Assembly (NCBI GenBank): GCA_030765065.1
Contig: CM060978.1
Location: forward strand, 110,169,192 to 110,233,191
DNA length: 64,000 nt
Reading direction: 5' to 3'
Origin: Deroplatys truncata
Lineage: Eukaryota > Arthropoda > Insecta > Mantodea > Mantidae
The notes beneath the pieces are model-generated. The model saw nothing but the letters and a program-made list of their open reading frames with translations. It searched no databases and was not told the origin of the DNA. Positions 1,529-42,082 of the stretch are shown in pieces. Position numbers and translations under genes: made by a program. The stretch's first letter is position 1. Each line of letters starts with the position of its first letter.

Positions 1529-2192
1529 ATTCTGTGTTACATTCACATTCTACCCTCTATCGTTTATTGGTGGGTATAAAATTATTCTTACGAAAGTTTA
1601 TTTTTCTATCTACTTCATTTTAATCCAGATAAACCTTACATTACACATTTCCTTAGGATACGAAGGGAACAGTGATAATGTTTCCTTGCAATCGCAAGAA
1701 ACAACTAAAAATCGATGGGACTAGAGTGACAATATACTGAACAAATCCAAATATTAATATCTCGGAAATGGCTTATGCCACAAAAAAGTTATTTGAAATA
1801 AATTGTGTGTTTTAAACAGATCTACATTTTTGTGTGGTACTTTTCGTCTATCGCTGAACGTTTACCAATTATACAAAATTATATAAAATCCCTTCCGAAT
1901 GAAGAGGACTTCACATGCTAATGCAGGAAAATTCAAGATATACATTTTATTTGTCATGTAAATATCTTTAAAAACGGTATTTTAATCAAAATCGTTAGAA
2001 CCATTTTTTAGAAAATCAAAAATTTCGAAAAATGTTCCATGTAAAGGCTAGTTTGGGGCGGTGGTATTTTCTTGAGAATCTTCGTGTCGCTCTTTAGAAG
2101 GTACTGAACCTAAATCCCAAGTTTGGTATTTATCTGTCTTTTCTTCTTGAGCTATGCTGTTCACAGACATACACACACGCACCTTTTAAAAC
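1529..2192 (+). mobile_element. Family H copy, 3' end missing, interrupted
   Basis: Begins with the module A terminus (TCTGTGTTACATTCACAT). It runs through module B up to the short CA stretch and the T-tract that precedes the last ~130 bp of the element. At that point another copy (2194) is inserted. Old subfamily, with many differences from the 9005-9896 reference copy. Confidence 0.75.
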
Positions 2193-2193
2193 A

Positions 2194-2903
2194 ATCTGCT
2201 GTTACATTCAACTAACTTTCATTACCCTCTATCTTATTTACTGGGCATGCAAACTATTCGTATTGAAGAATTTTTTAAATCTATTACATTTTAAACGTTT
2301 GCAGAAATATTTACATTGCATATTTCGTTATAGATACAAAGGGAACAGTAGTAATCAGATGTTTAAGAACTAGATGCTATACGCTGCTTTAAAATTCTAT
2401 ATTCTTTCCATGCAATTGCGAGAAACAACCGAATGTTGAGAGGACTCCAAAGAATGACCAAGTAATGAGCAATTCGAACCATTAATAACGTATATCTCGG
2501 AAATGGCTGATGCCATCAAAAAACGTTATTTGAAACAAATTGTGTGGTTTAAAGCAATCTACATTTGTTGTGTAGTCCGTTTTCGTCTGCCTCTTAACGT
2601 TTACTATATGCAAGATTATACGAAAGTTCTTCCAAATGAAGAGGACTTCAAAGACTATTCCCAGATAATTCAATATATACATTTTATTTATCATGTAAAT
2701 ATCATTAATAAATGATGTTTTAACCAAAGTCGTTGCAGCCACTTTTTAGAAAATAAAATTTACGAAAACTTTTCTGTGTAAGGGTAGTTTGGGATGCAGG
2801 ATTTTCTTGAAAACCTTTATGTCGCATCTTTAGAAGGCACTGAACCTAAATACCAAGTTTGGTGTTTATCCGACTCTTCGTTTTTGAGTCATGCTGTTCA
2901 CAG

Positions 2904-2951
<48 letters not shown>

Positions 2952-2974
2952 ACACACGGAGCGTTTTCTAAAAA
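2194..2974 (+). mobile_element. Family H copy, left part, interrupted at the internal T-tract
   Basis: Module A start at 2194, module B with a pure (CA)n run at 2906-2958. It is then broken at 'ttttctaaaaatg' just before the T-tract, where a further copy begins. Its last ~120 bp reappear at 3678-3798. Confidence 0.75.
2906..2958 (+). repeat. (CA)n microsatellite inside family H
   Basis: About 26 CA units with one interruption. It lies at the same place in module B where every long family-H copy carries a CA/GT-rich run, so it is an internal part of the element that has expanded. Confidence 0.9.
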
Positions 2975-3677
2975 TGTCATGTATCACATGGCTTTTTCTA
3001 CTCTCTAGCGCTTATTAGTGGATATATGCATTATTCTTACGAAAGTTTATTTTTCTATCTACTTCATTTTAACCGAGATAAACCTTTCCGAAAATAGCTG
3101 AATTATACATTTAGATATAGATACAAAGGGAATAGCAATACTCAGATGTTTTAGAAATGGACACTATACACTGGCCTAAAATTTCGTATTGCATGTTGCG
3201 AGAAACAGCTGAAAATCGACAGGACTTGAAAAGAATGCTAAGTACTGAACAATGCAAAACATTAATAACGGATATCTCAAAAATGGTTGATGCTACAAAA
3301 AAGTTATTTGAAGTAAACTGTGGTTAAGGGAGATCCACATTTTTTTGTGTAGCACGTTTTCATCTGTCGCTTAACATTTACCAGTTATGCAAGATTATAT
3401 AAATCACCTTCGAATACAGAGGACTTCACAAGCTACTCTCAGAAAATTGAAGATATACATTTTATTTATAATACCAGTTTGGTATTAACCTGATATTTCT
3501 TTTCGAGTTATGCTGTTCACAGACAGACACCAGATACACACACTTACCTTTTTCTAAAAGTGTGTTTTTGTTGGTCTCAGGGGATCTCAAAACATGCAGT
3601 TGCGGTGAAATCTCTGCATCGATTTTTGGGTGGAATGTAATACCTTCCCTACCTACTATGTACGCGGTAAAGAAAGT
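2975..3677 (+). mobile_element. Family H copy nested in the previous copy
   Basis: Starts with a decayed module A terminus (TCATGTATCACATGG) and ends with AGAAAGT, the family 3' terminus, at 3677. It is shorter than full length through internal loss. Host sequence resumes directly after it. Confidence 0.7.
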
Positions 3678-3798
3678 AAAAGTGCTGTTTTTATTCAAGG
3701 GGCCTCAAAACATGTATTCCTGGTGAAATCTCGGTAATGAGTTTTTTGGGTTTACTGCAATACTACCTGCATTTACTATAGGTAAGCAGTCCAGAAAT
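3678..3798 (+). mobile_element. Family H 3' tail, continuation of the 2194 copy
   Basis: Holds the T-tract followed by the 'cctcaaaacatgtatt' segment and a decayed 3' hairpin. This is the portion missing from the interrupted copy at 2194-2974 (or from the 1529 copy). Confidence 0.65.
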
Positions 3799-4318: not shown

Positions 4319-5185
4319 ACTTTCCCTACCATGTACTTAGTACTTAGTTCTCTACCCTACTCAGGGGTACTCCACCCAAAAATTAGATACCAAGATTTCG
4401 CCAGAGATACATGTTTTGAGACACCCTGAATCCAAAAAAGGCATTTTTATAAAAAGGTCCGTGTGTGCGTCTGCGTCTGTGAACAATAACTTAAAAACGA
4501 AAAGTTGGATAAATACCAAACTTGGTATTTGAGTTTAGTATTATCCAAGGATGTGACACGAAGATTTTCAAGATAATCCCTAACCCCAAATACCCTTTAT
4601 ATGGAACATTTTTCGAAAACTTTGATTTTCTAAAAAATGACTCTAACCATTTTGATTAAAATACCGTATATGAAAGATATTTACATGACAAATAAAATGT
4701 ATATCTTGAATTTTCTGGGAATAGCCTAGGAAGTCTTCTTCGGAAGGAATTTTGTATAATCTTGTATAACTTATAAACGTTAAGCGATAGACGAAAGTGT
4801 GCAAAAAAATAAGTAAATAAAAAACACACACAATTTACTTCAAATGAGTTTTTCTGTGACATAAGCCATTTCTGATATATCCGTTATTAAAGGTCGAATT
4901 GTTCAATATTTGTCATTCTTTTAAAGTACCAAGAATTTTAAGTTGCTTTTCGCGATTGCATTGAAACAATATGGAATTTTAAGGCCAGCGTATAGCGTCC
5001 AGTTCTTAAACATTTGATTATCGCTGTTCCCTTTGTACTATAACGAAATATGTAACGTAGCTATTCTTACAAAGGTTTGTTTGGATCAAATGCAGTAGAT
5101 AGATAAATAAGCTTGAGTAAGAATACTTTGTATACCCACTAATAAAGTTAGGGAGCAGAAATCATGTGAATGTATCACATCAGAT
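4319..5185 (-). mobile_element. Family H copy, minus strand, near full length
   Basis: Read on the minus strand, it runs from the ATCTGATGTG terminus near 5185 through modules A and B to ACTTTCCCTACC at 4319. It carries CG/GT-rich remnants of the microsatellite near 4460. The 3' terminus may be partly duplicated (two ACTTT/TTCTCTACC-like blocks at 4319 and 4348). Confidence 0.75.
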
Positions 5186-5894
5186 TTTTTTAAACGTATG
5201 TGTGTGTGAACAGCATAACTCAAAACGAAATGTCGGATAAACACCTACCAAACTTCGTGTTTAAGTTTAGTATCTTCTAAAGATTAGCCATGAAGAATTA
5301 AAAAAAAAAAAGAATTCCCCATCATAACCTACCCTTTACATGGAACATTTTTCGAAATTTTGACTCTCTGATTTAATCAAAATAAAGGTTTTGATTAAAA
5401 TACCGTGTTAAAGACATTTACGTGAGAAAACGTATATATTGGATTTTCTGGGAATAGCCTGTGAAGTACTTCTCATTCAGAAGGAATTTTAATAATCTTG
5501 TAGGTATAACTAGTATTACTCTTTAAGACCCACAGTTTATTTTAAAAAAAAACTTTTTATGGCATAAGCCATTTCCGAGATATCCATTATTAATGGTTCG
5601 CATTGTTCAATACTTTTTAATTTTTTTAGTCCTACCGACATTCAGTTGTTTTTCACGATTGCATGGAAACAGTATGAAATTTTAAGGCCAGTATGTAGCG
5701 TACAGTTCTTAAACAACTGACTATCGCTATTCCCTTTGTATCTATAACGAAATGTGTAATGTAGCTATTTCTGCAAAGGTTTATTTGGATTAAAATGAAA
5801 CAGACAGAAAAATAAGCTTTAGTAAGATTAGTTTGTATATCCACTAATAAAGGTTAAAGGGTAGAGAAAGTCATATGAGTGCGTCACATCGGAA
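5186..5894 (-). mobile_element. Family H copy, minus strand, lacking its last ~130 bp
   Basis: Begins (in plus coordinates) at the T-tract and microsatellite part of module B and continues to the module A terminus near 5894. The missing portion is exactly the part that would lie beyond the copy at 4319-5185. This suggests that copy was inserted at the T-tract of this one. Confidence 0.7.
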
Positions 5895-7664: not shown

Positions 7665-8552
7665 TACATCATCATAACATGAAGCCCCCGCCACCCCAAA
7701 ACATTACCCTCTATTGTTTATTAGAGGGTATACAAACTATTCTTACAAATGTTTTTTTTCCCCCCGTCCACCTCATTTTACTTTAGTTAAACCTTTGCAG
7801 AAATGTATACCTTACACATTTCGTTATACTTAAAAAAGGAACAGCGTTAGTCAAATGTTGAAGAATGGATGCTATATACTGGCCTTAAAAGTTTACATAT
7901 TTTCCATGCAATTGCAAGAACGAACTGAATGTAGAAAGGATTGTAAAAGAATGACAAAGTATTGAACAATTCGAACCATTAATATCTTCGAAATGGCTTA
8001 TGCCACAAAAAAGTCATTTGGGATAAGTTGTGTGCTTTAAAGGGATCTACATTTGTGTGTAGTACTTTTTCCTCTATAACCTTTACCAGTTATGCAAGAT
8101 TTTATAAAGTTCCTTCCAAATGAAGAGGACTTCACAGGTTGTTCCAGAAAATTCAAGATACGCATTTTATATTTTTTAATATATAATATTTTAAACGAAA
8201 TTGTTATTGCTGTTTTTGAACAAATAAAAAAGTTCGAAAATTCTTTTATGTAAAGGGCAGTTTGGGGTTAGGGATTTTCTTGAAAGGTTTCATGTCGCAT
8301 CCTTGGAAAATACTGAACTCAAATACCATGTGTAGTATTTAACCGACTTTATGGGTTTTTGAGTTATGCTGTTCAAACACACACACACATAAACAGACAG
8401 ACACATACACACACAGATCTTTTTCTAAAAATGCTTTGTTTGTTTTGTTTCAAGGCGACTCAAAACGTGTATTTCCGTGAAATCTCGATATCGAATTTTT
8501 GGGTGGAATGCAATACTTTTCCTACTTACTATAGGTAAGCAGTAGAGAAAGT
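7665..8552 (+). mobile_element. Family H copy, old subfamily
   Basis: Module A with a decayed terminus, module B with a CA-rich run near 8375-8415, and a 3' end at AGTAGAGAAAGT (8541-8552). The DNA after its 3' end matches the DNA after the 3' end of the copy at 12760-13190. Confidence 0.75.
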
Positions 8553-9004
8553 AATGAATATAGTACAAAGTCATCCGAAAAATCCCCACAACTTTATCTG
8601 GAACGAAATCAAGTGAGGAGTGCAAGAAAATTGTCAGATTGTATAGAGAAACATATTTAAGGAGGGATGTAAGTGGTGAGGTCAATTTTTTTCTTCAATT
8701 TTTTGAACATTCATGATGTTTTCCTCACTCTCCGTAAATTTTAACATGATATTCCAACTCTTAATGTATTAAAAAAAATACATACTAGTGCGCTGATACT
8801 GCCACGCCCACATTTCAATCAAAATGAACACTTCTGGTTGCATCATTTTATTTTGTCACAATGAATCGCTATGGGCAATTCCACTTCAAGATTATTTTCT
8901 CTAGGTTATTAGTACACCCTTCTTCCACCAGGAGAGGCTATACAATTGCACAATCTGGAGAGCACAAGTTTTTGTTGAGGTTGGAATTGAAGTAGTGAAT
9001 TTTT
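8553..9004. other. Flank shared with another family H copy
   Basis: About 120 bp from 8553 (aatgaatatagtacaaagtc onward) is clearly similar to 13191-13320. The remainder is unassigned. Confidence 0.5.
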
Positions 9005-9896
9005 ACTTTCTCTACTACGTATAGTAAGTAGGGGAAGTATTGCATTCCACCCAAAAATTCGATACCGAGATTTCACCGGAAATACATAGTTTTGAGACTC
9101 GCTGAATCCAAAAAAAGCATTTTTGGAAACATGTCCGTGTGTGTGTCTGTCTGTGTGTCTGTGTGTCTGTGTGTCTGTCTGTGTGTCTGTGTGTCTGTGT
9201 GTCTGTGAACAGCATAACTCAGAAACGAACAGTCGTATAAACACCAAACTTGGTATTTAGGTTCAGTATCTTCCAGAGATGCGACACGAAGGTTTTCAAG
9301 AAAATCCCCCCACTCGAGACTACCCTTTACATGGAACATTTTTCGAAAATTTTAATTTGCTCAAAAATGGCTCTAACGATTGTATTAAAATATCATATGT
9401 TTAAGATAATGTCATTCGAAATGAAATGTATATCTCGAATTTTCTGGGAATGTCTCCAAAAGTATTCTTCATTGTGAGCGACTTTTGCATAACTGGTAAA
9501 CCATAAGAGATAGACAAAACTTTACTACACAAAAAATGTAGAGCGTGTTAAAATACGCAACTTATGTCATATACATTTCTTTTGTTGAGTGAACCGTTTT
9601 CGAGATATTGCTTGTTATTTCCTTAAATTTTCCAATACTTATACTTTTTCTCAAATTCGTTACTCATTTTTTTATGTCCTGGACATGCAAAGAGAATGGA
9701 ATGCGCCACATAGCAACCAGCGTTAAAATATTTGACTATCACTTAAAACCTACCATACTCCCCTTGCATCTACAAGAAAATTACCAATAAGATTGACATC
9801 TCGATATCTCGATTAACATGAAGCATATGGATTAGGCGTTTGTAAAAATAGATTGTACAAGAGCAGAGAAAGTCATGTGAGTGTAACACATCAGAT
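9005..9896 (-). mobile_element. Family H, full-length 892-bp reference copy
   Basis: On the minus strand the element starts ATCTGATGTG at 9896, where ATGTG/CACAT can pair in a small 5' hairpin. The subterminal ACTTTCTCTAC (here with one change) follows. Module A runs to about 9680. Module B contains a GT/CTGT microsatellite (9130-9212). The 3' end has an imperfect hairpin (CTACTTAC...GTAGTAG) followed by AGAAAGT at 9005, flanked by T/A runs. No open frame of significance exists. Asymmetric ends with subterminal inverted repeats, an internal microsatellite and a 3' hairpin are known features of Helentron-related non-autonomous elements. Equating this family with that group is my inference. A MITE-like DNA transposon is the alternative. 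Confidence 0.8.
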
Positions 9897-9963
9897 TTTT
9901 TTGAAAGTATTGTTTTTACTGAATTGCCTAATGTATTTCACAATAGTTGTAATAGTCTTTACA

Positions 9964-10528
9964 ATGCCAAGATCATATGGAGTGTATAAAAATATAAAAT
10001 TTCATGGAAACCGTTTTAAAAACAGAAACAACCAGTAGCAGACAAACTAACACAACTGAATCTATCAGCTTCATCTTCTAAAATTGATTCTGATCTGCAA
10101 GTTTTGGATAACAGTGTAGCCAATGAAGATTTATCAATGTCAGGGCTAAGACTTGTAGATCTAAATGTAATGCAATAAACATATCATGTGACTGCTCAAA
10201 TTGCTAAAATACTCAGTGTGTCAAAATGATGGAAACAAGCTGAGTTGATGTTGCTTACGTTGATGATGTTCAAATTTGTGTGTGAGAGCTGGGTTTTGAA
10301 TTTTCATTTTCTTCATCCAAGTAAGGGCCAGAAGGCATTTATGAAAGTAATTTTAGATTAGCATATGGAATGACGTGCTTGGAAAGGGGAGAGAAGGTGC
10401 AACATCTTTTGTGGAATTATGAACATGCCTTCAACTATTCTAAGATTTATGCTGTAAACAAATACATTTCCAATATAACATATGTTGCTGCAAAGTGAAC
10501 ATATGAAAGCTGTAGATGAATTAAAGAA
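9964..10528 (+). pseudogene. Mutator-like transposase relic, N-terminal half
   Basis: ATG at 9964 opens MPRSYGVYKNIKFHGNRFK, matching the usual start of arthropod proteins with the Mutator-like transposase domain. Next come a low-similarity SxSASSSKI/LRLVDLN region (10050-10180) and, near 10350-10500, a block resembling the conserved 'AMRxxGxGxxG..FC..MNMP' region. Frames change and stops intervene, so it is inactive. The gene is cut at about 10528 by a GC-rich insertion and resumes at 11072. Family assignment rests on the order of conserved blocks across the gene. Confidence 0.7.
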
Positions 10529-11071
10529 CCACGGGACCAGGACTGACAACTCAGTCCGCACCCTCGGGCTCCGGGAGTCAAGCTTGTGGGGTTTTCCATT
10601 AGGGCAGCACCTATTTTATATTCTGTCCCCCCCCCCTTGCGTGGCCGAGATTGGGTCAGAACACTATTCTGCCCTCGTCTCCCGCCACACAGGAACGGAA
10701 ATGGATACGCCACTTACGCACGTCAGCCCAATAGGCAAAACCTATCAGGAAGACTACCGAAGAACCTCGGTGGGGCCGACAGTATACCTAGTTACCGTCT
10801 ACCAGCTCTCACTCATGGTTGGTGCCGAAGATCATCTGGGCGTCTCACAACCCCGCCTGGGGGGGAAAACCAGCCAGATGTACCCAATCTTCCATGGGTA
10901 TCGGGAACCACTGCCTTGCCGAGTCCAACCGAATCCGAACAACTCTCTTATGGGAGGGGCTCGAATATTCGGCCCGGCGTACTTCTAGCAACGTCAGAAG
11001 TACCACGAGTGCTATGGGTCTGCAGCGACCGCACCACAGCAACTGAAGGTGTCGGAACCCTCCTCTACGGA
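10529..11071 (+). mobile_element. GC-rich insertion of unknown class within the transposase relic
   Basis: About 543 bp of markedly GC-rich DNA in an AT-rich window. It begins with a potential hairpin (GGACTGACAACTCAGTCC) and contains a C-run at 10626. It is bracketed by similar sequences, gtagatgaattaaag at 10512 and gtagctgaattagtaaag at 11072, which look like an imperfect target-site duplication. Overlapping open frames of 168-191 codons exist in several frames, as expected for GC-rich DNA; none has a recognised domain. Strand is arbitrary. It could be a SINE or a truncated LINE end. Confidence 0.55.
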
Positions 11072-12215
11072 GTAGCTGAATTAGTAAAGCAAAGAGAAGA
11101 GAAAGAAGAATTAAGTGAAGAGCCCAAAGATTGTGTGTTTCAGTCGATGGTACCTGGATGAAGAGAGGCCAAACATCCCTGTTTGGTGTAGCTTTAATAA
11201 TAGATGTTGACAGTGGCAAAATATTGGACATTGTCATTAAGTCTAGGTATTGCAATGAATGTGCAGCGAGAAAATCCTTGGCAGGTCCAGCAGCAGAGAA
11301 GGAATGAGCTGAAAAGCATAAATTAATTTGCAGCAAAAAACTATGATGGTTCAAGTGGTGGCATGGAATCAGCAGCTGTTGTCGACATGTTTTGCAGATC
11401 CCAAAGTCAATATGGAGTAAGGTTACACAAAATATCTTGGGGATGGTGACTCTTCACCCTACAAGCACGTCTTGGATGGAAATCCGTATGACTATCCAGT
11501 TGAAAAACTGGAATGTATTGGATACATTCAGAAAAGGGTTGGTGGAAGACTTAGTCGATTGCTGAAGAAGAAAAAGGGCACTCATTTGAAGGATGGAAAC
11601 TGTTTAGGAGGCAGAGGAAGGCTGACTGCAAAGGTTTACTATGGAAAAGAGGTAAGAGAAAATAATTCTAATGTAGAGAATATGAGGAAAGCAATTTGGG
11701 CCATTTACTTCCGCAAACTGTCAACCGATCAGAATGCACCAGTTGTCTCCAAAGAAGGGTGGTGCAAGTACAGCATTGACAGCAGCAGCTATACATACAA
11801 GCATTCACTCCCAGAGGCAGTGTTAAATGAATTAAAGCCAACATTTAGAGCTCTGTAATATCCTGAACTTTTGCAAAAACGTGTGCGTAGTAAATAATAA
11901 TAGTGATGAAAGTTTTAACAATTTAGTGTAGATTAGGTGCCCTAAAATGGTCTTGTGGTCTAAAACTACTGGGTATTGCTGTGTATGATGCTGTGCTATA
12001 TTATAATGAAGGAGATAATGGCAGAAGGTTTTAAGGTTTTAAACAAAGTTGAGCTGGAACCTGGAGTATACACAATAAAAATACTTAACTACGTGGATCG
12101 GAAGCGGGTAGCGAAAGTAGAGTCAATCTCCTGAAACTGCACTAGGAAGCAAGGCAGAAGAAGAGGGCCAAATGAAAGTTTCGAGATGATGATGTGGTGG
12201 TCACTGAGCATAGCT
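11072..12215 (+). pseudogene. Mutator-like transposase relic, catalytic and C-terminal half
   Basis: Resumes after the insertion. Near 11140-11275 the translation gives SVDGTW followed by KRGQTSLFGVALIIDVDSGK and a CNEC motif, the family's first catalytic-Asp region. At 11335-11470 come a GSSGGMES block and then a frameshifted GDGD block. The open stretch 11472-11858 reads YDYPVEKLECIGYIQKRVGG, then GRGRLT, MRKAIWAIYFRKLS and KHSLPEAVLNELKP. Beyond the stop at 11858, shifted frames continue with SDESFNNLV and PGVYTIK-like blocks to about 12215. At least three frameshifts and several stops make it a pseudogene. TIRs were not found. Confidence 0.75.
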
Positions 12216-12759
12216 AACTTTTGAAAGTAAGAATGTTTTGTTCATATACTTGATAAAAAACCTTAATTGCTCATTTCTAAAACTTACATTTTTCATATGT
12301 TAATTTTTCTCAGCAACCTCCCACCAATAGACCTATGAAACTTTTATAAAAGTCTTTATAACTTAATATTGAAGCTTGTTCTCTATAGGAAGTTTATTGG
12401 AGTATTAGAATCAGGTTTATGTTAGCTCTATACACTGATGTTATGCCAAAAGTGTAAAACAAAAATTAAAATGTAATTAGTTTTTATGTTTAGAGGTCTA
12501 AAGTTACCAACAGGTAACATTAATTCAGTAAACACTTCAGATGAATTGCTTCACAAATTTCGGAAATAAAGGAACATAATTTCTAATCGTTCATTTCTTA
12601 GTTTTAGTGCATTGCCCAATCTGTGTAAGGAAAATTCACCATTAATTCTTTTTACGTGCTACATTTTATAGGTAACACGTGTGCAAAATTTCAAAAACAT
12701 ATCTTTGTTAATGAGCTAATGGCAGTTTTTTAAATACATTAGTGACTTCTGACTTACAT
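12216..12759. other. Unassigned stretch
   Basis: AT-rich, no recognised feature. It may include the 3' end of the Mutator-like element, but no TIR is visible. Confidence 0.45.
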
Positions 12760-13190
12760 CCCCAAAATTCAAAACATACATTTTATTATCTTTAATATAT
12801 ACTATTTTAAACAAAATCGTTACAGCTGTTTTTGAGCAAATCAAACATTTCGAAAAATCTTTTATGTAAAGGGCAGTTTGCGGTTCGGGAATTTTCTTGA
12901 AAATTTTGTGTCGTGTCCTTGGAAAATACTGAACTTAAATACCACTTGGTATTTAACCGACTTTTAATTTTTTTAAACTTTAAACTTTATAGGTTATTGA
13001 GTTATGCTATTCACAGACACATACATGTAAACATGCAGACACATACACACAGATCTTTTTCTAAGAATGCTTTTCATTTTGTTTGTTTCAAAGCGTCTCA
13101 AAACGTGTATTTCTGGTGAAATCTCGGTATTGAATTTTTGGGTAGAATGCTGTACTTCCCATAACTACTATAGGTAAGTAGTAAAGAAAG
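12760..13190 (+). mobile_element. Family H copy, 5'-truncated
   Basis: Only the second part of module B: a segment resembling the 'catacattttatt' block, a CA-containing stretch near 13015-13050, and a 3' end GTAGTAAAGAAAGT. It is closest to the copy at 7665-8552, with which it also shares its 3' flank. Confidence 0.7.
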
Positions 13191-13647
13191 TAATGAAGGT
13201 AGGTGCAGACGAAAGTCATCCGATGAATCAGCACAACTTTATTTGGAACGACATCAAGTCAGAAGGGGTGCAAGAGGATTGGCCGATTGTGTAGTGAAAC
13301 AAGTTTAAGAGGATGCCAAGCATCACGAAACAGTTGTTTTGTATTCAGATTGTTGTTTAAATATGATCTTAAGTCTCCTAATACTTTAATAATTCAAACC
13401 ACAAGATTATATTTATTGATTACAAATTTCTTGATTCCGGAATTAGCAAATTCTTAATTAATCTAATTTCGGTTGAATGCCAAGTGAAATCGCGTTTGTT
13501 TGAATGTGGGTGCATGTAAAGAAAACTGCTGAAGGTCATCAAAGTGAATATGACATAACGTGAAGATTCCTTGTCTACTCAATCACTTCAACATTCCGTA
13601 ATAATATTAATAAGCTCTGGTGAGAAAAATAAAAACTAACAAAAAAA
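13191..13647. other. Flank shared with 8553-8680, then unassigned DNA
   Basis: 13191-13320 matches 8553-8680, including gtcatccgatgaatc/gtcatccgaaaaatc and caagtttaagaggatg/catatttaaggagggatg. The rest holds nothing recognisable. Confidence 0.5.
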
Positions 13648-13880
13648 ATCTGATGTGCTACACTCACATGACTTTCTCTACTCTTGTACAAACTATTTTT
13701 ACCAGCGTCTATTCTCCATATGCATCATGTTAATCGAGATATCCAGATGTCAATCTTATTGGTAATTGTCTTGTAGATGCAAGGGGAATATGGTAGGTTA
13801 TAAGCGATAGTCAAATATTTTAAGCGTTGGTTGCTATGTGGCGCATTCCAATCTCCTTTGCATGTCCAGGACATAAAATA
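13648..13880 (+). mobile_element. Family H module A, first of three tandem
   Basis: Starts ATCTGATGTG after an A-run and stops at the end of module A (ccaggacataaaa). The next module A follows with no spacer. Young subfamily. Confidence 0.85.
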
Positions 13881-14158
13881 ATCTGATGTGTTACACTCAC
13901 ATGACTTTCTCTACTCTTGTACAAACTATTTATACAAACGCTTATTCTCAATCTACTTCATGTTAATCGAGATAAACATTTGCAGACTCTATCTTATTGC
14001 TAATTTTCTTGTAGATGTAGGGGAAAATATATTTACAAGGGCAATATAGAAAAACAGTAGCCTTTAAGCACATACATATCTCTTAATAGCTCGTTGCTAG
14101 GTGCAGCACCATTCCCTTTGCCACAGATTATAACTCTTTGCATATCCAAGACAAAACA
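13881..14158 (+). mobile_element. Family H module A, second of three tandem
   Basis: Same start and same end point (ccaagacaaaac) as the unit before it, directly abutting the full copy at 14159. Confidence 0.85.
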
Positions 14159-15097
14159 ATCTGATGTGTTACACTCACATGACTTTCTCTACTCTTGTAC
14201 AAACTATTTTTACAAACGCTTATTCTCCATCTACTTCATGTTAATCGAGATAAACATTTGCAGACTCTATCTTATTGCTTATTTTCTTGTAGATGTAAGG
14301 GGAATATATATTTACAAGGGCAATTTGGAAATACAGTAGCCTTTAAGCACATACATATCTCTTAATAGCTGGTTGCTAGGTGCAGCACCATTCCCTTTCC
14401 CAAAGATTAATACTCTTTGCATATCCAAGACAAAAAAATGAATAACGAATTCCCATTTGAGAATATAAGTACTGAAAATTTTAAGGGAATAACAAGCATT
14501 ATCTCGAAAATGGTTCACTCAACAAAAAAATGTATATGACATAAATTGTGTATTTCAATGCGATCTACATTTTTTGTGTAGTAAAATTTTGTCTATCTCT
14601 TATGGTTTACCAGTTATGCAAAAGTCGTCCACAATGAAGAATACTTTTGGAGACATTCCCAGAAAATTCGAGATATACATTTCATTTCTCATGACATTAT
14701 CTTAAGCATATAATATTTTCATCAAAATCGTTAGAGCCATTTTTGAGAAAATTAAAATTTTCGAAAAATGTTCCATGTAAAGGGTAGTCTGGAGTGGGGT
14801 GATTTTCTTGAAAACCTTCGTGTCGCATCTCTGGAAGATACTGAACCTAAATACCAAGTTTGGTGTTTATCCGACTGTTCGTTTTTGAGTTATGCTGTTC
14901 ACAGACACACACACACACACAGACACAGACACACAGACACACACACACACACACAGACACACACACGGACATGTTTCCAAAAATGCTTTTTTTGGATTCA
15001 GGAGGTCTCAAAACATGTATTTCCAGTGAAATCTCGGTATCGAATTTTTGGGTGGAATGCAATACTTCCCCTACTTACTATACGTAGTAGAGAAAGT
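14159..15097 (+). mobile_element. Family H full-length copy (A+B) in the array
   Basis: 939 bp from ATCTGATGTG to AGAGAAAGT, with a CA/CAGA-rich microsatellite at 14903-14968. It is closely similar to the copies at 9005, 16229 and 42317. It carries the third module A and first module B of this array. Confidence 0.85.
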
Positions 15098-15725
15098 AAA
15101 AATGAATAACGAATTCCCATTTGAGAAAATAAGTATTGAAAAATTTAAGGGAATAACAAGCAATATCTCGAAAATGGTTCACTCAACAAGAAAAATGTAT
15201 ATGACATAAATTGTGTATTTTAACGCGATCTAAATTTTTTGTGTAGTATAATTTTGTCTATCTCTTATGGTTTACCAGTTATGCAAAAGTCGTTCACAAT
15301 AAAGAATAGTTTTGGAGACATTCCCAGGAAATTCAGGATATACATTTTATTTGTCATAAAAATATCTTAAACATATGATATTTCAATCAAAATCGTTAGA
15401 GCCATTTTTGAGAAAATTACAATTTTCGAAAAATCATCCATGTAGAGGGTACTCTGGGGTGGGGGGATTTTCTTGAAAACCTTCGTGTCGCATCTCTGGA
15501 AGATACTGAACCTAAATACCAAGTTTGTTGTTTATCCGACTTTTCGTTTCTGAGTTATGCTGTTCACAGACAAACACACAGACACACACACACGGATATG
15601 TTTCCAAAAATGCTTTTTTTGGATTCAGGGGGTCTCAAAACATGTATTTCCTGTGAAATCTCGATATCGAATTTTTGGGTGGAATACAATACTTCCCCTA
15701 CTTACTAAACGTAGTACAGAAAGTA
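15098..15725 (+). mobile_element. Family H module B, second of three tandem
   Basis: Begins 'aatgaataacgaattccc', the first bases of module B, immediately after the previous 3' terminus. It ends with another hairpin plus AGAAAGT. No module A is present. Confidence 0.85.
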
Positions 15726-16228
15726 AAAATGAATAACGAATTTGAGAAAAAGTATAAGTATTGGAAAATTTAAGGGAATAACAAGCAATATCTCGAAAAT
15801 GGTTCACTCTACAAAAAAAATGTATACGACATAAATTGAGTATTTTAACGCGATCTACATTTTTTGTGTAGTAAACTCTTGTCTATCTCTTATGGTTTAC
15901 CAGTTATGCAAAAGTCGTTCACAATGAAGAATACTTTTGGAGACATTCCCAAAAAATTCGAAATATACATTTCATTTGTCATGAAAATATCTTAAACATA
16001 TGATATTTTAATCAAAATCGTTAGAGCCATTTTTGAAAAAATTGAAATTTTCGAAAAATGTTCCATGTAAAGGGTAGTCTGTGGTGGGGGATTTTCTTGA
16101 AAACCTTCGTGTCGCATCTCTGGAAGATACTGAACCTAAATACCAAGTTTGGTGTTATCCAACTGTTCGTTTCTGAGTTATGCTGTTCACAGACACACAC
16201 ACGGACATGTTTCCAAAAATGCTTTTTT
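15726..16228 (+). mobile_element. Family H module B, third of three tandem, left part
   Basis: Starts like the previous unit and stops inside the T-tract (gctttttt) at 16228, where a full opposite-strand copy is inserted. It continues at 17119. Confidence 0.85.
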
Positions 16229-17118
16229 ACTTTCTCTACTACGTATAGTAAGTAGGGGAAGTATTGCATTCCACCCAAAAATTCGATACCGAGATTTCAC
16301 CGGAAATACATGTTTTGAGACCTCCTGAATCCAAAAAAAGCATTTTTGGAAACATGTCCGTGTGTGTGTCTGTCTGTGTGTCTGTGTGTCTGTGTGTCTG
16401 TCTGTCTGTGTGTCTGTGTGTCTGTGAACAGCATAACTCAAAAACGAACAGTCGGATAAACACCAAACTTGGTATTTAGGTTCAGTATCTTTCAGAGATG
16501 CGACACGAAGGTTTTCAAAAAAATCCCCCCACCCCAGACTACCCTTTACATGGAACATTTTTCGAAAATTTTAATTTTCTCAAAAACGGCTCTAACGATT
16601 TTGATTAAAATATCATATGTTTAAGATATTGTCGTGACAAATAAAATGTATATCTCAAATTTTCTGGGAATGTCTCCAAAAGTATTCTTCGTTATGAACG
16701 ACTTTTTCATAACTGGTAAACCATAAGAGATAGACAAAATTTTACTACACAAAAAATGTAGATCGCGTTAAAATACACAATTTATGTCATATACATTTCT
16801 TTTGTTGAGTGAACCGTTTGCGAGATATTGCTTGTTATTCCCTTAAATTTTCCAATACTTATACTTTTTCTCAAATTCGTTATTCATTTTTTTATGTCCT
16901 GGACTTGCAAAGAGAATGGAATGCGCCGCATAGCAACCAGCGTTAAAATATTTGACCATCGCTTAAAAGCTACCATATTCCCCTTGCATCTACAAGAAAA
17001 TTATCAATAAGATTGGCATCTCGATATCTCGATTAACATGAAGCATATGGAGAATAAGCGTTTGTAAAAATAGTTTGTACAAGAGTAGAGAAAGTCATGT
17101 GAGTGTAACACATCAGAT
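16229..17118 (-). mobile_element. Family H full-length copy inserted in a module B T-tract
   Basis: 890 bp, minus strand, from ATCTGATGTG at 17118 to AGAAAGT at 16229. It is nearly the same length and sequence as 9005-9896. T-runs flank it on both sides (tttttt before, tttttttt after), so any duplicated target cannot be told from the run itself. Confidence 0.9.
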
Positions 17119-17230
17119 TTTTTTTAATTCAGGGAGTCTCAAAACATGTATTTCCGGTGAAATCTCGGTATCGAATTTTTGGGTGGAATACAATACTTTC
17201 CCTACTTACTATACGTAGTAGAGAAGGTAA
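17119..17230 (+). mobile_element. Family H module B, third of three tandem, right part
   Basis: Resumes with the T-tract and 'aattcagggagtctcaaaac', the exact continuation of the sequence broken at 16228. It ends with the 3' hairpin and GAGAAGGT. Confidence 0.85.
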
Positions 17231-21671: not shown

Positions 21672-21778
21672 ACTTTCTCTTCTACGTATAGTAAGTAGGG
21701 CAAGTATTGCATTCCACCCAAAAATCGATACCGATATTTCATCAGAAATACATGTTTTGAGGCCCCTGAATAAAATAT
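21672..21778 (-). mobile_element. Family H copy (minus), left piece of an interrupted element
   Basis: Contains the 3' terminus ACTTTCTCTTCTACG and the last ~105 bp of module B. It breaks in the A-run equivalent to the internal T-tract. It continues at 22992 after a plus-strand copy; together the pieces are about 881 bp, a full element. Confidence 0.85.
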
Positions 21779-22991
21779 ATCTGATGTGTTACACTCACAT
21801 GACTTTCTCTACTCTTGTACAAACTATTTTTACAAACCTTATTCTCAATCTATTTCATATTATTCGAGATAAACATTTGCAGAAACGATCTTTTGACATG
21901 CAAAGAGAATTACATTTCACGCATAGCGACCAGTTCTAAAAATATTTGACTATCGCTTAAGGCCTACTATATTTCCCTTGTTTTGTAATTGCAAGAGCAA
22001 TATAGAAATACAGTAGCCTTTAAACATAGACATATCTCTTAATAGCTGGTTGCTATGTGCAGCACCATTCTCTTTGCCACAGATTAATACTCTTTGCATA
22101 TCAAAGACAAAAAAACGAATAACAATTCCCATTTGAGAAAATAAGTATTGAAAAATTTAAGGGAATAAAAAGCAATATCTCGAAAATTGTTCACTCAACA
22201 AAAAAAAAAGGTATATGACATTAATTGTGTATTTTAACGCGATCTACATTTTTTGTGTAGTAAAATTTTGTCTCTTATGGTTTACCAGATTTGCAAAAGT
22301 CGTTCACAATGAAGAATACTTTTGGAGACATTCCAGAAAATTCAAGATATACATTTTATTTTTCATGAAAATATCTTAAACATATGATATTTTAATCATA
22401 ATCGTTAGAGTCATTTTTGAGAAAATTAAAATTTTCGAAAAATGTTCCATGTAAAGGGTAGTTTGGAGTGGGGGATTTTCTTGAAAACCTTTGTGTCGCA
22501 TCTCTGAAAAATACTGAACCTAAATACCAAGTTTGGTGTTTATCCGACTGTTCGTTTCTGAGTTATGCTGTTCACAGGCACACACACGGACAAGTTTCCA
22601 AAAATGCTTTTTTTGGATTCAGGGGGTCCTAAAACATACATGTCCGGTGAAATCTCGGTTTCGAATTTTTGGGTGGAATACAATACTTCTCCTACTTCTA
22701 GTTCCCAAGGTCGCGGGTTCAAACCCGGCGGAGGGCGATGGATTTTTTCGGGCGTAAAAATCCTTAGCATGGCTTCCTTCGGAAGGGAAGTAAAGCCGGT
22801 GGTCCCGTGTCGTAGATTTAAGGCACGTAAAAGAACCTCAAGCCCGATAAAGAGGCCTCTGAGGAAAATTACCGATCTTTCACGCCCAATACAGAATGGT
22901 ACGTTAAGGACCATAGTAGTTAAAGAGCGTCCATAAATAAAACTCAATTTTTATTTTTCTTCCCCTACTTAGCTTACGTAGTAGAGAAAGT
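21779..22991 (+). mobile_element. Family H full-length copy nested in a minus copy and itself carrying a SINE
   Basis: Starts ATCTGATGTG at 21779 and ends GAGAAAGT at 22991. Removing the SINE at 22698-22958 and one 12-bp target duplication leaves about 940 bp, the normal full length. Inserted at the T-tract of the surrounding minus copy. Confidence 0.88.
22698..22958 (+). mobile_element. SINE-A, 5'-truncated
   Basis: Starts within the tRNA head (ctagttcccaagg) and has the B-box GGTTCAAACCC at about 22717. The SINE-A body follows, ending in aaataaaactcaattttta. Flanked by CTTCTCCTACTT (22686-22697) and CTTCCCCTACTT (22959-22970), a 12-bp target-site duplication of family H sequence with one difference. 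Confidence 0.9.
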
Positions 22992-23765
22992 AAAAATCAT
23001 TTTTATAAAAAAAGGCCCGTGTGTGTGTCTGTGTATCTGTGTGTCTGTGAACAGCATAACTCAAAAACGAGAAGTCGGATAAATACCAAACTTGGTGCTT
23101 AGGTTCAGTATCTTTCAAAGATGCGACACGAAGCTTTTCAAAAAAATCCCTCCACCCCAGACTACCCTTTATATGGAACATTTTTTGAACAACTTTGATT
23201 TTTTCAGAAATGGCTAACGATTTTGATTAAAATATCCTATATTTAAGATACTTTCATGACAAATAAAATGTATATTTTGAATTTTCTGGGAATGTCCCGA
23301 ACAGTCGTCTTTTTTCTGAATGGATTTTGCATAACGAATAAGCCATAAGAGATAGGCAAAGGTTTTCTACATTGAAAATGTAGAGCTCGTTAAATCACAC
23401 AGTTTATGTCATATACATTTTTTTGTGTGGAGTGAACCATTTCGGAGATATTCCTTATTATTTGTTTGAACTTTCCAATACTTATTTTCTCAGTGGGAAT
23501 TCGTTATTCGGTTTTTATTTCTTCTTTCTTTCTTTTTTATGTCCTGAACATACAAAGAGAATGGAATCTTCCACATAGCAACCAGCTGTAAAATATTTGA
23601 CTATCGCTTAAAGCCCACATATTCCGTTTGCACCTACAAGAAAATTAGCAATAAGATAGTTTCTGCAAATGTTTATCTGATTAACATGAAGTAGATGGAG
23701 ATAAACGTGTGTAAAAATAGTTTGTACAAGAGTAGAGAAAGTCATGTGAGTGGAACACATCACAT
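22992..23765 (-). mobile_element. Family H copy (minus), right piece of the interrupted element
   Basis: Continues from the A-run through the GT microsatellite (23018-23048), the rest of module B and module A, to the terminus near 23765 (ACACATCACAT). Confidence 0.85.
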
Positions 23766-24210: not shown

Positions 24211-24665
24211 ACTTTCTCTACTACCTACCTATAGAAGTAGAGGAAGTATTGTATTCCATCCATAAATTTGATATCGCCATTCCACGGAAGTACAAATTTT
24301 GAAACTCCTTGAAAAAAAAAAGATAACGTTGCGTTTGTATGCGTGTGTGAACAAGTTAATTAAAAAACGAAGAATCCGATAAATGCCAAACTTGGTATAT
24401 AAGTTTATCTTACAAGGAAGCAACACAAACATTTTCAAGAAAACTCTTCAACCCCAAACTACCCCTTAGATGGAAAATTGTTTCATTGTTTTATTTTCTC
24501 ATAACTGGCTCTTTACGATTTTTATTAAAATATCATATTTTAAAGATATTTGCATGACTGCATATTCTGAAGTTTCTCCTTTGGAATTATCTTCATTCTG
24601 AACTGAAGTTTGTATAACTGGTAAACCTTAAAAGGTGGACAACATTTAAAGTGTAGAGCTCTTAT
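24211..24665 (-). mobile_element. Family H copy, module A and part of B missing
   Basis: Starts ACTTTCTCTACTACC with the 3' hairpin region, contains the CACGGAAGTACAA block and a weak GT stretch, and fades out near 24665. Diverged. Confidence 0.65.
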
Positions 24666-25533
24666 GCAGTTGATATCGAGTACCTTTTCCTGCAGTTCTA
24701 GTAGTTTTCCCAGATTACTGTCATGCGACATCCATAAAAGCATCTCTTCTTTTTCGTTTCATGGGTTCGTTAATCAAAACGATATGATATGTGAATAGTT
24801 TTGTTTTGTTTTCTGTATCATGCATATAACCACACCGATATTACCTAACATTAGATTACTTCTTATCGTGAGTAATGTGGATAAAAGAATATATTTTCAT
24901 AAGAGTGTAAAAAAATATAAGAAGTTGTGTTAAGTTGTAATGGATAAACAAAAAAAGTCAAATGTGTGTGATGCATCAGAGTTTTTAAATACGCGGTCTA
25001 AGTATATTATAACAATAATAATTTTCCGATTTGCTTAATATTTCACATGTGGGACCCCATTTTGCGTTCTGCTGCGATTATTTTGACATAGATATAAACA
25101 AATATAATTTTGATCATTATCGCCATTATCAACAATCTCATGTGTTGATAACTTTTGTTTAGTCTCATATGTGCTCCTTCTTTAAAGTCTATGTTTTTAT
25201 GTTCACAAGGTTTATATCTGTATGTTTAAAAGGGGATACATTCTTAGTAAAGGGCTACTTCAAATTTTCACTAAGCAATTGACCGACCCACTTAGAAGCT
25301 GCAAATTCGAAATGATACGTTGAGGTTTCAGATCTAACTTAGGAGTTAATAAAAACGTTGTCAAGAAGCCAGGACATATCATGGTAAAGGAAGCTTTTAC
25401 TGGAAAGAGAAGTACCTATTTTCTTTGGACCACTGAAGAGATCACGAAATGCTTCGAGTAGATCACGGTAGGTATTGAGCGCAAACTTAAATATTGCGGC
25501 GAAGTAGTGAAAACCAATTAGAAGTTTAAAATG
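24666..25533. other. Unassigned stretch
   Basis: AT-rich, nothing recognised. Confidence 0.5.
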
Positions 25534-28304: not shown

Positions 28305-29150
28305 ACTTTCTCTACTACGTATAGTAAGTAGGGGAAGTATTGCATTACACTCAAAAATTCGATACCGAGATTTCAGAGGAAATACATGTTTTGAGGCCTC
28401 CTGAATCCAAAAAAAGTATTTTTGGAAACATGTCCGTCTGTGTGTCTGTCTGTGAACAGCATAACTCAGAAACAAACAGTCGGATAAACACCAAACTTGG
28501 TATTTAGGTTCAGTATATTCTAGAGATGCGTCACGAAGGTTTTCAAGAAAATCCCCCCACCTCAGATTACCCTTTACATGGAACATTTTTCGAAAATTTT
28601 AATTTTCTCAAACATGGCTCTAACCATTTTGATTAAAATATCATATATTTAAGATACTTCCATGAAAAATAAAATGTATAGCTTGAATTTTCTGGGAATG
28701 TCTCCAAAAGTACTCTTCATTGTGAACGAATTTTGCATAACTGGTAAACCATAAGAGATAGACAAAATTTTGCTCCACAAAAATGTAGATCGCGTTAAAA
28801 TACACAATTTATGTGATATACATTTTTTTTTGTTGAGTGAATCATTTTCGAGATATTGCTTGTTATTCCCTTAGATTTTCCAATTCTTTTACTTTTTCTC
28901 AAATGGGAATTCGTTTTTCACTTTTTTTGTCCTGGTAATGCAAAGAGAATTAAATACTCCACATAGCAACCAGCTCTTAAAATATTTGACTATCGCTTAA
29001 AGCCTACCAATTCCCCTTGCATCTACAAGAAAAGTAGCAATAAGATTAACATCTCGATATCTCGATTAACATGAAGAATTATAGAGAATAAGCGTTTGTA
29101 AAAATAGTTTGTACAAGAGTAGAGAAAGTTATGTGAGTGCAACATCAGAT
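28305..29150 (-). mobile_element. Family H full-length copy
   Basis: 846 bp from the module A terminus (CATCAGAT, 29150) to ACTTTCTCTACTACG at 28305. Short GT/CTGT microsatellite. Young subfamily. Confidence 0.88.
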
Positions 29151-30399: not shown

Positions 30400-31248
30400 T
30401 TCTCTACATAGCAGGTAGGGAAGGTGCTGCATTCAAACCCAGAAATACCGAGATTTCACTGGAAATACATGTTTTGAGGCCCTTGAATCCAAGTAAAGCA
30501 TTTTAAGAAAAAGGTCGTGCATGTGCACCTCTCTCTCCTTTCTCTCTCTCTCTCTCTTCTCTCTGTGTCTTTGAACAGTATAACTCAAAAACCAATAGTC
30601 GGATCAACACCAAACTTGGTATTTAAGTTCAGTGTATTCCAAAGATGGGACACGAAGATTTCCAAGGAAATCCCCTCACCCCAAACTACTCTTTACATGT
30701 AGAGTTTTTGAAAGTTTTGATTTTCTAAAAAATGGTTCTAATGATTTTGATTAAAATACCATATGTTAAAGATACTTACATTACAAATAAAATGTATATC
30801 TTGAATTTTATGGGAATAGCCTGTATAGTCCCCTTCATTCGGAAGGATTTTTGTATAACCTTGTATAATTGGTAAACGTTAAGCGATAAACGAAAGCGTA
30901 TAACACAAAAAATGTAGATCTCTTTTAAACAACAATTTCCTTCAAATAAGTTTTTTGTGGCATTAGCCATTTCCGAGATATCCATCATCAATGGTTCGGT
31001 CATTCTCTTAAAGTCCTGTCAAGATTCAATTGTTTCTCGCAATTGCCTAGAAACAGTGTGGAATTTTAAGGCTAGCATTTAGCGTCCAATTTTTAGACAT
31101 CTCTATTCTCTTTGTATCTATAATGTAGCTATTTCTACAAAGGATTAAAACGTAGTAGATGGAAAAATAAGCGTAGTAAGAATAGTTTGTGTACCCACTA
31201 ATTAACGATAGAGCGTAGAGAATGTCGTGTGAATGTGTCACATCAGAT
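30400..31248 (-). mobile_element. Family H copy, old subfamily
   Basis: From CATCAGAT at 31248 to the decayed 3' terminus near 30400 (ctacatagcaggtaggg). Its microsatellite has become TC-rich (30527-30562). Confidence 0.75.
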
Positions 31249-33774: not shown

Positions 33775-34623
33775 ATCTGATATAACATTCACATGACTTT
33801 CTCCTCCCTCTATCGCTTATTAGTAGGTATACAAGCTATTCTTACGAAACTTTATTTTCCTGTCTACTTCATTTTAATCGAGATAATCTTTTCCGGAGAT
33901 AGCTGCATTGCACTTTTTGATATAGTACAAAGGGAATAGCGCGATAGTCAAATGATTTAGAACTGGACGTTATACGCTGGCCTTAAAATTCCATGCTCTT
34001 TGCGTCTCGCAATCGCGAGAAACAAATGAATATCTAAAGGACTTTTAAAGAATGACAAAGTATTGAACAACTTGAACCACTAATAATGGATATTTCGGAA
34101 ATGGCTAATGGCACAAAAAAACTTTATGGAAATAAATTACGTGTTTTAAAAAGATCTAAAGTTTTGTATAGTATGTTTTCGTCCGTGGCTTAACGTTTAC
34201 CAGCTACACTAGATTATAATAATTCCTTCCGAATGAAGGAACTCACAAGCTATTCACAGGAAATTCAAGATACACATTTTATTTGTCATGTAAATATCTT
34301 GAATATATGGTGTTTTAATCAAAATCGTTAGCTATTTTTAGAAAAATAAAAAATGTAAGGGGTAGTTTGGAGAGGAGGTATTTCTGGAAAACTTTCGTGT
34401 CGTATCTTTGGAAGATCCTGAACCTAAATACCAAGTTTGATATTTATCGGACTTTTCGTTTCTGAGTTATGCTGTTCACAGACACACACAGACCTTTTTC
34501 TAAAATTGCTTTTTTTATTTATTCAGGGAGCCTAAAAACAGTATTTCCGGTGAAATCTCGGTATCAAGCTTTTGGGTAGAATGCAGTACTTTCTCTGCCG
34601 ACTATGTACGTGGTAGAGAAAGT
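33775..34623 (+). mobile_element. Family H copy, old subfamily, near full length
   Basis: 849 bp from ATCTGATATAACATTC to GGTAGAGAAAGT. The CA run is reduced to CACACACA (34480-34488). Confidence 0.8.
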
Positions 34624-38808: not shown

Positions 38809-39652
38809 ATCTGATGTGATACATTCACATGACTTGCTAAACTCTATCTTTATTAGTGGTTTACAAGCTATTCCTACTAAATCTTATTTTTCTATCTACT
38901 ACATTTTAATCCAAACAAGTCTTTGCAAAAATAGCTACATTACACATTTTCTTATAGACACAAAGGGAACAGCGCCAAATGTTTAAGAACTGGACCCTAT
39001 ATGTTGGCATTAAAATTCCATACTGTTTCCATGCAATCGCGAGAAACACCTGAATGTTGATAGGACTTTAAAGAACCACCAGGTAATGAACAATTGGAAC
39101 CTTTAATAAGGGATATCTCAGAAATGGCCTATGCCAACAAAAAACTTATTTGAAGTAAATTGTGCGTTTTAAAGAGATCTACTTTGTTTGTGTAATACAT
39201 TTTCGTCTATCACTTAACGTTTAGCAGTTGAAGAAGACGATACAAAATTTCTTCCAACTGAAGTAAACTTCACAGGCTATTCCCAGAAAATTCAAGATGT
39301 TTTATTTGTCATGTAAATATCTTTAATATATGGTATTTTAATCAAAATTGTTACATTTTTTAGAAAATAAAAAATTGTGAAAAAACTTTCGTGCAAAGGG
39401 TAGTTTGGGGTGGGAAATCTTCCTGTCGCATCCTTGGAAGGTACTAAACTTAAATACCAAGTTTGGTATTTATCCGACTTTTCGTTATTGAGTTATGCTG
39501 TTCACAGACAGACACACACACGCGCGCGCGCGACCTTTTTCTAAATTTTTAGGGGGCCTCAAAACATGTACTCCTGGTGAAATCTGAACATCGAATTTGT
39601 TAGTGAAATACTTACAATACTTCCCCTACTTACTACATGTAGTAGAGAATGT
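38809..39652 (+). mobile_element. Family H copy, old subfamily
   Basis: 844 bp from ATCTGATGTG to GTAGAGAATGT. The CA run passes into (CG)n at 39521-39531. It is followed at once by the T-tract and 3' tail of another copy. Confidence 0.82.
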
Positions 39653-39765
39653 AAAATTGTTTTTGATTAAGGAGGCTTCAAAACATGCATTTCCGGTGAA
39701 ATCAATATCGAATTTTTGAGTGGAATACAATACTTCCCTTACTTACTCTACGTAGTAGAGAAAGT
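39653..39765 (+). mobile_element. Family H 3' tail only
   Basis: T-tract (ttgtttttgatt), 'cttcaaaacatgcatttccg' and a complete 3' end TACGTAGTAGAGAAAGT. This is the same piece that follows the nested copies at 3678 and 17119. The left host piece is not present here. Confidence 0.8.
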
Positions 39766-41236: not shown

Positions 41237-41361
41237 ACTTTCTCTACTACGTATAATAAATAGGGGAAGTATTGCATTCCACCCAAAAATTCGATACCGA
41301 GATTTCACCGGAAATACATGTTTTGAGACCCCTGAATCCAAAAAGCATTTTTGGAAACATG

Positions 41362-41417
<56 letters not shown>

Positions 41418-42082
41418 CAGCATAACTCAGAAACGAACAGTGGGATAAACACCAAACTTTACATGGGACATTTTTGGAAAATTTTAATTTTCTCAAAAAT
41501 GGCTCTAACGATTTTGATTAAAATATCATATGTTTAAGATATTTTCATGACAAATGAAATGTATATCTCGAATCTTCTGGGAATGTCTCCAAAAGTATTC
41601 TTCATTGTGAACGACTTTTGCATAACTGGTAAACCATAAGAGATAGACAAAATTTTACTACACAAAAAATGTAGATCCCGTTAAAATACACAATTTATGT
41701 CATATACATTTTTGTTGTTGAGTGAACCATTTTCGAGATATTGCTTGTTATTCTCTTAAATTTTTCAATACTTATTTTCACAAATGGGAATTCGTTATTC
41801 ATTTTTTTTGTCTTGTATATGCAAAGAGTATTAATCTGTGGTAAAGAGAATGATGCTGCACATAGCAACCAGCTATTAAGAGTAATGTCTATGCTTAAAG
41901 GCTACTGTATTTCTATATTGCCCTTGTAAATATATATTCCCCTTACATCTACAAGAAAATTAGCAATAAGATAGAGTCTGCAAATGTTTATCTCGATTAA
42001 CATGAAGTAGATGGAGAATAAGCGTTTGTAAAAATAGTTTGTAAAAGAGTAGAGAAAGTCATGTGAGTGTAACACATCAGAT
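41237..42082 (-). mobile_element. Family H full-length copy
   Basis: 846 bp. The microsatellite is a pure (GT)n run at 41365-41415. A stretch of about 100 bp after it in module B, which normally holds 'ggtatttaggttcagtat', is deleted. Confidence 0.85.
41365..41415 (+). repeat. (GT)n microsatellite inside family H
   Basis: About 25 uninterrupted GT units at the element's usual microsatellite position. Confidence 0.95.

Follow-up and report, generated by a model that had tools for sequence, protein, structure and literature searches.

What kind of element fills almost a third of a stretch of mantis DNA, and how have its copies come to lie in and against one another? The stretch, referred to here as the window, is 64,000 nucleotides of contig CM060978.1 from Deroplatys truncata. 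A nhmmer profile built from six full-length copies gave 41 matches that together cover 19,577 bases (30.6% of the window). The pieces found with this profile and with BLAST, using the copy at 9005-9896, span 1335 to 63277, and when grouped by hand they make about 30 copies, which agrees with the original prediction of about 30 copies in about 30% of the window. A control search of the reversed window gave 8 nhmmer matches, all at model positions 103-222, in or around the microsatellite; one match in the window itself, 58034-58130 (model 135-230), falls in the microsatellite part. Allowing at most one mismatch, the 12-mer ACTTTCTCTACT occurs 32 times in the window versus 0.40 expected by chance, and the decamer ATCTGATGTG occurs 23 times versus 4.02 expected.

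The six full copies that were aligned measure 890, 892, 939, 942, 846 and 846 bp and have pairwise identities of 89-95%. The first four lengths had been given correctly in the original prediction, a further length of 940 bp was not found among the aligned copies, and the copy at 28305, measured at 846 bp (28305-29150), is shorter than those lengths implied. Insertions in the 3' third set two length subfamilies apart in this alignment. Two or more length subfamilies, with a unit of about 0.85-0.94 kb, make up the family together with older relatives, several of which keep both ends in their profile matches. For 24 older pieces compared with the consensus, the mean likeness of the blocks is 75-91% over positions 1-440, 45-79% over 441-800 and 65-89% over 801-895, and the 5' half (1-440) is much better kept than 441-800. 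From this pattern in the older copies, the 3' part looks as if it had been exchanged between subfamilies. Apart from the reference copy and the nested groups described below, the following copies were located:

7730 to 8552, minus strand: older copy (model 1-857)
12756 to 13191, minus strand: partial copy with 5' end (model 1-445)
24211 to 24677, plus strand: partial copy with 5' end (model 1-560)
28305 to 29150, plus strand: full copy, 846 bp
30400 to 31248, plus strand: older near-full copy (model 4-895)
33776 to 34623, minus strand: older near-full copy (model 1-894)
60277 to 60983, plus strand: older partial copy with 3' end (model 205-889)
62616 to 63277, plus strand: older copy, both ends present

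Which way round does the element read? On the plus strand of the window, the copy at 9005-9896 runs from a T-run through the 5' subTIR, a complementary repeat, the microsatellite, a non-coding body, the 3' subTIR, a hairpin and CAGAT to a second T-run:

9005 to 9896, plus strand: reference full copy, 892 bp, in Helentron polarity 5' to 3'
9000 to 9004, plus strand: T5 flank at the 5' end
9005 to 9016, plus strand: 5' subTIR ACTTTCTCTACT, flush with the 5' end
9027 to 9038, plus strand: inverted repeat AGTAGGGGAAGT, 12 of 12 pairs with the 5' subTIR (two of them G.T), 10-nt spacer
9135 to 9207, plus strand: GTCT/GT microsatellite, approximate limits
9862 to 9873, plus strand: 3' subTIR AGCAGAGAAAGT (one base different from the consensus, AGTAGAGAAAGT), 23 nt from the 3' end
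9875 to 9891, plus strand: 3' hairpin, ATGTG, 7 nt, CACAT

In this copy CATGTGAGTGTAACACATCAGAT stands directly after the 3' subTIR and is followed by the T-run. The fixed ends recognised in the original prediction are real, but its polarity has to be reversed, ATCTGATGTG being the reverse complement of the 3' end. The opposite polarity is disfavoured because the subTIRs would then sit at the wrong ends for the HINE/DINE-1 group; the assignment to that group, also made earlier, holds, and the reversed element matches it more closely. The 12-bp inverted pair described before exists as well, but one member is flush with the 5' end and the other lies 23 nt in from the 3' end. The microsatellite had been called central; it is found at about consensus positions 131-198 of 895, in the 5' part, and is of the GTCY type. 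An imperfect 3' hairpin, for which no coordinates had been given, is taken here to be the 5' subTIR with its adjoining complementary repeat; the true 3' hairpin is the small ATGTG/CACAT structure at the opposite end.

The end structures recur among the copies. When the 5' subTIR was paired with the best-placed 12-mer just downstream, counting G.T, at least 10 of 12 positions paired in 18 of 20 5' ends and at least 11 of 12 in 15 of 20. For those 18 ends no more than 3.6% of 500 shuffles per end paired as well, a figure to be read with the relatedness of the copies in mind, as the ends are not independent. The 5' ends at 4319 and 30397 paired no better than shuffles. The 5' and 3' subTIRs are complementary at 12 of 12 positions in 6 of 15 copies, at 11 of 12 in 4 more and at 7-10 of 12 in the remaining 5. 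A loose pattern found 19 3' ends in which the subTIR stands immediately before a match to the hairpin-bearing tail. In the alignment of the 5' stem, which leaves out the degenerate ends 4319 and 30397, 91.6% of the cells are paired, and in that of the 3' hairpin (18 3' ends, 12 distinct, with 2214 and 60967 of the 19 left out and 5151-5185 added) the figure is 91.2%. Covariation was not above shuffles for either structure: 105 of 500 shuffles equalled or exceeded the score of the 5' stem, and 500 of 500 did so for the 3' hairpin. Since bases redealt among the sequences give equally high pairing, covariation adds no proof, and the stem pairings rest on complementarity. DNA folding of the 5' ends gave z scores of -2.35 (9005), -3.98 (the older copy 34623) and only -0.52 (3677). 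The 3' hairpin is thermodynamically weak alone (z -0.34; z -1.19 with more upstream sequence).

These features point to a class. Very probably the family is a non-autonomous Helentron of the HINE/DINE-1 type, as known here from end structures and insertion pattern in one window. In keeping with that group, a 5' subTIR at 0 nt from its end is matched by a 3' subTIR 23 nt inside the other end, the 5' subTIR has an inverted repeat beside it (18 of 20 5' ends pair at 10 or more of the 12 positions), a stem-loop of weak fold and without covariation lies between the 3' subTIR and the 3' end, the microsatellite in the 5' part is GTCY-rich, and insertion is T-rich with a small variable gain of T's and without a fixed duplication. 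The insertion target of canonical Helitrons is AT. Canonical Helitrons are defined by 5' TC and 3' CTRR ends in the cited part of PMC2374699, and this class was rejected here, where the ends are ACTTT... and ...CAGAT, in T-runs.

The subTIRs, the 5'-adjoining repeat, the GTCY microsatellite, the 3' hairpin and T-rich insertion are all published features of DINE-1 and HINE elements, as far as the cited parts of PMC4067079, PMC2374699 and PMC7492417 go. Drosophila DINE-1 (INE-1), as described in those parts of PMC2374699, has a subTIR 0-2 nt from the 5' end with a partial inverted repeat beside it, a GTCY-rich microsatellite in its 5' block, an internal 3' subTIR with a stem-loop a few nucleotides beyond, TT or T-rich insertion and no ORF. 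It differs in the subTIR itself, which is ATACCCGTTACTC (13 bp) in D. melanogaster versus ACTTTCTCTACT (12 bp) here, in a 3' stem of 7-11 nt versus 5-6 bp here, and in a central repeat array, which was not seen in the six aligned copies. The HINEs of Metaseiulus and Culex share subTIRs, a 3' palindrome and a T-rich target, and in the cited sections of PMC4067079 no target-site modification was found for them; border T number varies in Culex and some mite elements as it does here, and a microsatellite is mentioned in only "some copies" of mite HINEs. Their subTIRs are palindromic, whereas here a separate repeat adjoins the 5' subTIR in the manner of DINE-1; the 3' subTIR of the mite elements is 38-60 nt from the end versus 23 nt here, and, unlike for the mite and Culex elements as presented there, no autonomous partner was found among the 39 ORFs of the window. 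Crassostrea gigas Cg_HINE (the cited sections of PMC7492417) has an 11-12 bp 5' subTIR, a complementary inverted repeat at 1-12 bp, a GTCY-type microsatellite in several elements and a 3' subTIR with a palindrome; its satellite-like central tandem repeats were not seen in the six aligned copies.

Further relatives were sought in several places. Exact patterns taken from both ends and from the core had no match in viral contigs or in genome contigs, and a phage collection held no match to the element; these collections are not meant for animal genomes, so that the blanks say little. A 17-base core pattern did occur in two viral contigs, but the stretches are alike and coding-like by eye, the consensus had no BLAST match there at E 0.001, and the hits were set aside. 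Five short end and core strings were searched in the literature; 33 papers contain one or more of them, and no title among the 20 matches listed names such an element. The lepidopteran (GTCY)n elements of Coates et al., reportedly short elements with a hitchhiking GTCY microsatellite, are likened to the family by title alone. The core that follows the microsatellite in Drosophila DINE-1 presumably resembles the GTGAACAGCATAACTCAGAAACG stretch here, and this is a lead only.

The copies are also found within one another. Nine insertions lie in or against another family copy, five of them two-sided and four one-sided. Among the two-sided insertions, H2 in H1, 14159 in H2 and 3677 in the 3784 host have the orientation of the host, and 16229 in H1 and 22991 in the 21672 host have the opposite one:

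13648 to 17228, minus strand: host copy H1, with nested H2 (T7 site) and 16229-17118 (A7 site)
13881 to 15724, minus strand: H2, nested in H1, carrying 14159-15097 at its own T7 site
14159 to 15097, minus strand: full copy, 939 bp, nested in H2
16229 to 17118, plus strand: full copy, 890 bp, antisense in H1
21672 to 23765, plus strand: host copy, interrupted by 21779-22991
21779 to 22991, minus strand: nested antisense copy at an A7 site of the 21672-23765 host, with a small inverted piece at 21894-21996
2195 to 3784, minus strand: older host broken by 2977-3677, with 1533-2182 adjoining its 3' end (composite G)
2977 to 3677, minus strand: older copy nested at a T5 site of the 2195-3784 host, 3' end damaged

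The copy at 21779-22991 is itself broken near its 5' end by about 260 bp of unrelated sequence (about 22698-22958), and on either side of it stands a near-repeat of element sequence (AAGTAGGGGAAG and AAGTAGGAGAAG). A string in this insert, GGTTTGAACCC, resembles a tRNA-type B box, and the insert is perhaps a SINE with a 12-bp duplication.

Does the element prefer its own copies as targets? Runs of T or A of at least five number 517 in the window, and 226 of them (44%) are inside family copies, so that the count of nests needs no special preference, and such a preference was rejected. Given this density of runs, 9 nested among 20 to 26 insertions has a P of 0.54 to 0.87. The nests are concentrated in three of ten runs with a P of about 0.002, a value obtained after the fact. 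It treats the runs as equal and counts G and H as broken at the T5 site, an assignment made across eroded junctions; concentration in particular runs is not claimed on these grounds.

The nested copies serve as empty sites within the window, as uninterrupted host runs can be compared with filled ones. The site at consensus 665, where uninterrupted, is T7 in 4 of the 5 copies found by pattern and T8 in the other; at consensus 105, eight copies retain GAATCC, seven of them with A7 and one with A5. The pattern was loose: many unrelated or eroded A-runs (uncounted) also matched, and the 28305 copy was missed at consensus 665. At the filled sites, H2 in H1 has T5 before and TATTTT after it, 14159 in H2 has T5 and TGTTTT, 16229 in H1 has T6 and T7, and 22991 in its host has T5 and ATATTTT, which by eye are gains of about 4, 4, 6 and 3 bases, mostly T; the 3677 nest, the fifth of the two-sided ones, was left out of this count, its 3' end being damaged. 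A non-T base stands within the first three positions after CAGAT in three nested insertions, 13881-15724 (TATTTT), 14159-15097 (TGTTTT) and 21779-22991 (ATATTTT). Among 14 copies, the exact flush repeats between the flanks are 5, 1, 1, 2, 6, 0, 4, 3, 0, 0, 6, 4, 2 and 5 nt long, all T. The 5' flank ends in exactly five T's in 8 of the 14 flank sets, preceded by A in all eight (9005, 14159, H2, 22991, 21672, 28305, 42317 and 4319). There is no fixed-length duplication at the insertion sites. The original prediction of insertion in T/A runs is borne out by the T-run flanks and by the nests in T-runs of the family's own copies; its expectation of insertion between T's without duplication holds as regards a fixed length, but about 3-6 extra T-rich bases are present at the four filled sites. 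The variable gain of T's fits the family's class, as border T's are reported to vary between Helentron and HINE copies (the cited part of PMC4067079). The filled sites may carry a short variable duplication; duplication of a pure T-run does not explain the non-T bases in the three nests.

The same sites bear on an alternative, that the family is a MITE, derived by deletion from a DDE transposon, with terminal inverted repeats and a target-site duplication that is short and T-rich. We consider this improbable. It would account for the complementary 12-bp repeats near both ends and for the T-rich bases gained at the four nest sites, and DINE-1 itself was first argued to be MITE-like (the cited part of PMC2374699). 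However, the 3' repeat is subterminal rather than terminal, and the flush repeats, T only and from 0 to 6 in length, are of no fixed length. Nor does any subTIR match with at most one mismatch occur in 9874-13179 or 43236-60954, where the Mutator- and mariner-type fragments of the window sit.

Those fragments were found when all 39 stop-to-stop ORFs of at least 100 aa in the window were scanned against Pfam, a scan that could miss broken genes in shorter ORFs. No Rep, PIF1 helicase or RPA domain was found in any of the 39, and there was no Pfam match inside the element. Three of the 39 match transposon proteins (LINE, mariner type and Mutator type), all outside the element, and 36 have no match. 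A loose motif search gave two Rep-motif strings with 3 mismatches, which were taken for chance, and no Walker-type motif in the window. The LINE at 49330-53934 has ORFs of 407 aa (no Pfam match) and 1101 aa (endonuclease, reverse transcriptase and zf-RVT) and lies in the GC-richest part of the window. On the minus strand at 55915-56580 is a transposase fragment of 221 aa with a Transposase_1 domain, which by our own reading would be of mariner type. A Mutator-like transposase fragment (PF20700) is on the plus strand at 11421-11855, and long overlapping ORFs without a Pfam match adjoin it at 10479-11453.

Could a LINE enzyme have inserted the copies? In the polarity of the original prediction, the element would be a retroposon with a short A-tail (AAAGT AAAAA), and 5 or 6 A's do follow five of the six full copies in that polarity, with a LINE of two long ORFs present in the window. 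This origin is very unlikely: several old copies retain both ends, no Rfam family reaches its gathering score in the window, and when the flanks of 14 copies were compared over 20 bp, no shared word of at least 6 other than pure T was present in 9, and in the other 5 the shared words were 6-7-mers made up of T and A plus one or two C at most. The copies at 41237-43258 stand head to tail and those at 13648-17228 are densely clustered, which might suggest a local satellite-like array instead of a dispersed mobile element, a notion to which we give hardly any credence, since the copies lie on both strands with precise ends and many unrelated flanks, and the cluster is accounted for by nesting and not by tandem units.

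In the four one-sided nests part of the host is missing:

1533 to 2182, minus strand: host 3' remainder, one-sided composite G
4319 to 5893, plus strand: one-sided composite H, full copy 4319-5185, then host 3' remainder 5197-5893
38809 to 39765, minus strand: one-sided composite I, host 5' part 39658-39765, then full older copy 38809-39652
41237 to 42312, plus strand: one-sided composite D, full copy 41237-42082 (846 bp), then host 3' remainder 42084-42312
42317 to 43258, plus strand: full copy, 942 bp, following composite D head to tail after an intervening TTTT

Composites D, G and H start with the 5' end of the inner copy and finish with the 3' end of the host, and I is the reverse. A BLAST search for the missing host part gave no match below E 0.03 in the DNA where it would be expected; for G and H this DNA is one and the same half-kilobase, which separates the two and was searched from either side. 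Both of these composites have eroded junctions, and the 5' end of G is itself degenerate. In all four, both copies have the same orientation, which is needed by composite rolling-circle transposition; the four point to that process, and with so few cases this is suggestive only. Self-nested Helentrons may thus have been remobilised as chimeras that start at the 5' end of one copy and stop at the 3' end of the other, a reading that we put forward tentatively. The inner stop might then have been read through in D, G and H, and in I an early stop might have been used, which is an equally tentative proposal. Plain deletion, or insertion at the edge of a copy that was already broken, is a possible origin of the one-sided nests as well.

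How would such an element move? We infer a rolling-circle mechanism for the family, with a putative enzyme and a putative strand polarity. A Rep-helicase-endonuclease supplied by an autonomous Helentron elsewhere in the genome would recognise both ends, begin at the 5' subTIR and stem and displace a single strand, and displacement would end at the 3' subTIR and hairpin. Joining of the displaced strand into a T-run would then let the element spread by copy-and-paste with no target duplication of fixed length. What the window itself shows are the end structures, the T-run flanks, the variable T gain, the nesting in the family's own T-runs and the composites that run from one copy's 5' end to another copy's 3' end.

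What the window contributes is a HINE family at high local density, with a polarity that can be read from the end structures and with nested copies that are built-in empty sites showing how the element inserts. For Helitrons and HINEs, bypass of an end and rolling-circle transposition of composites are earlier proposals (the cited part of PMC4067079), and the four one-sided nests are concrete candidate cases. If the chimera reading is true, the window would preserve naturally formed examples of how Helentrons bypass a terminator and choose a start.
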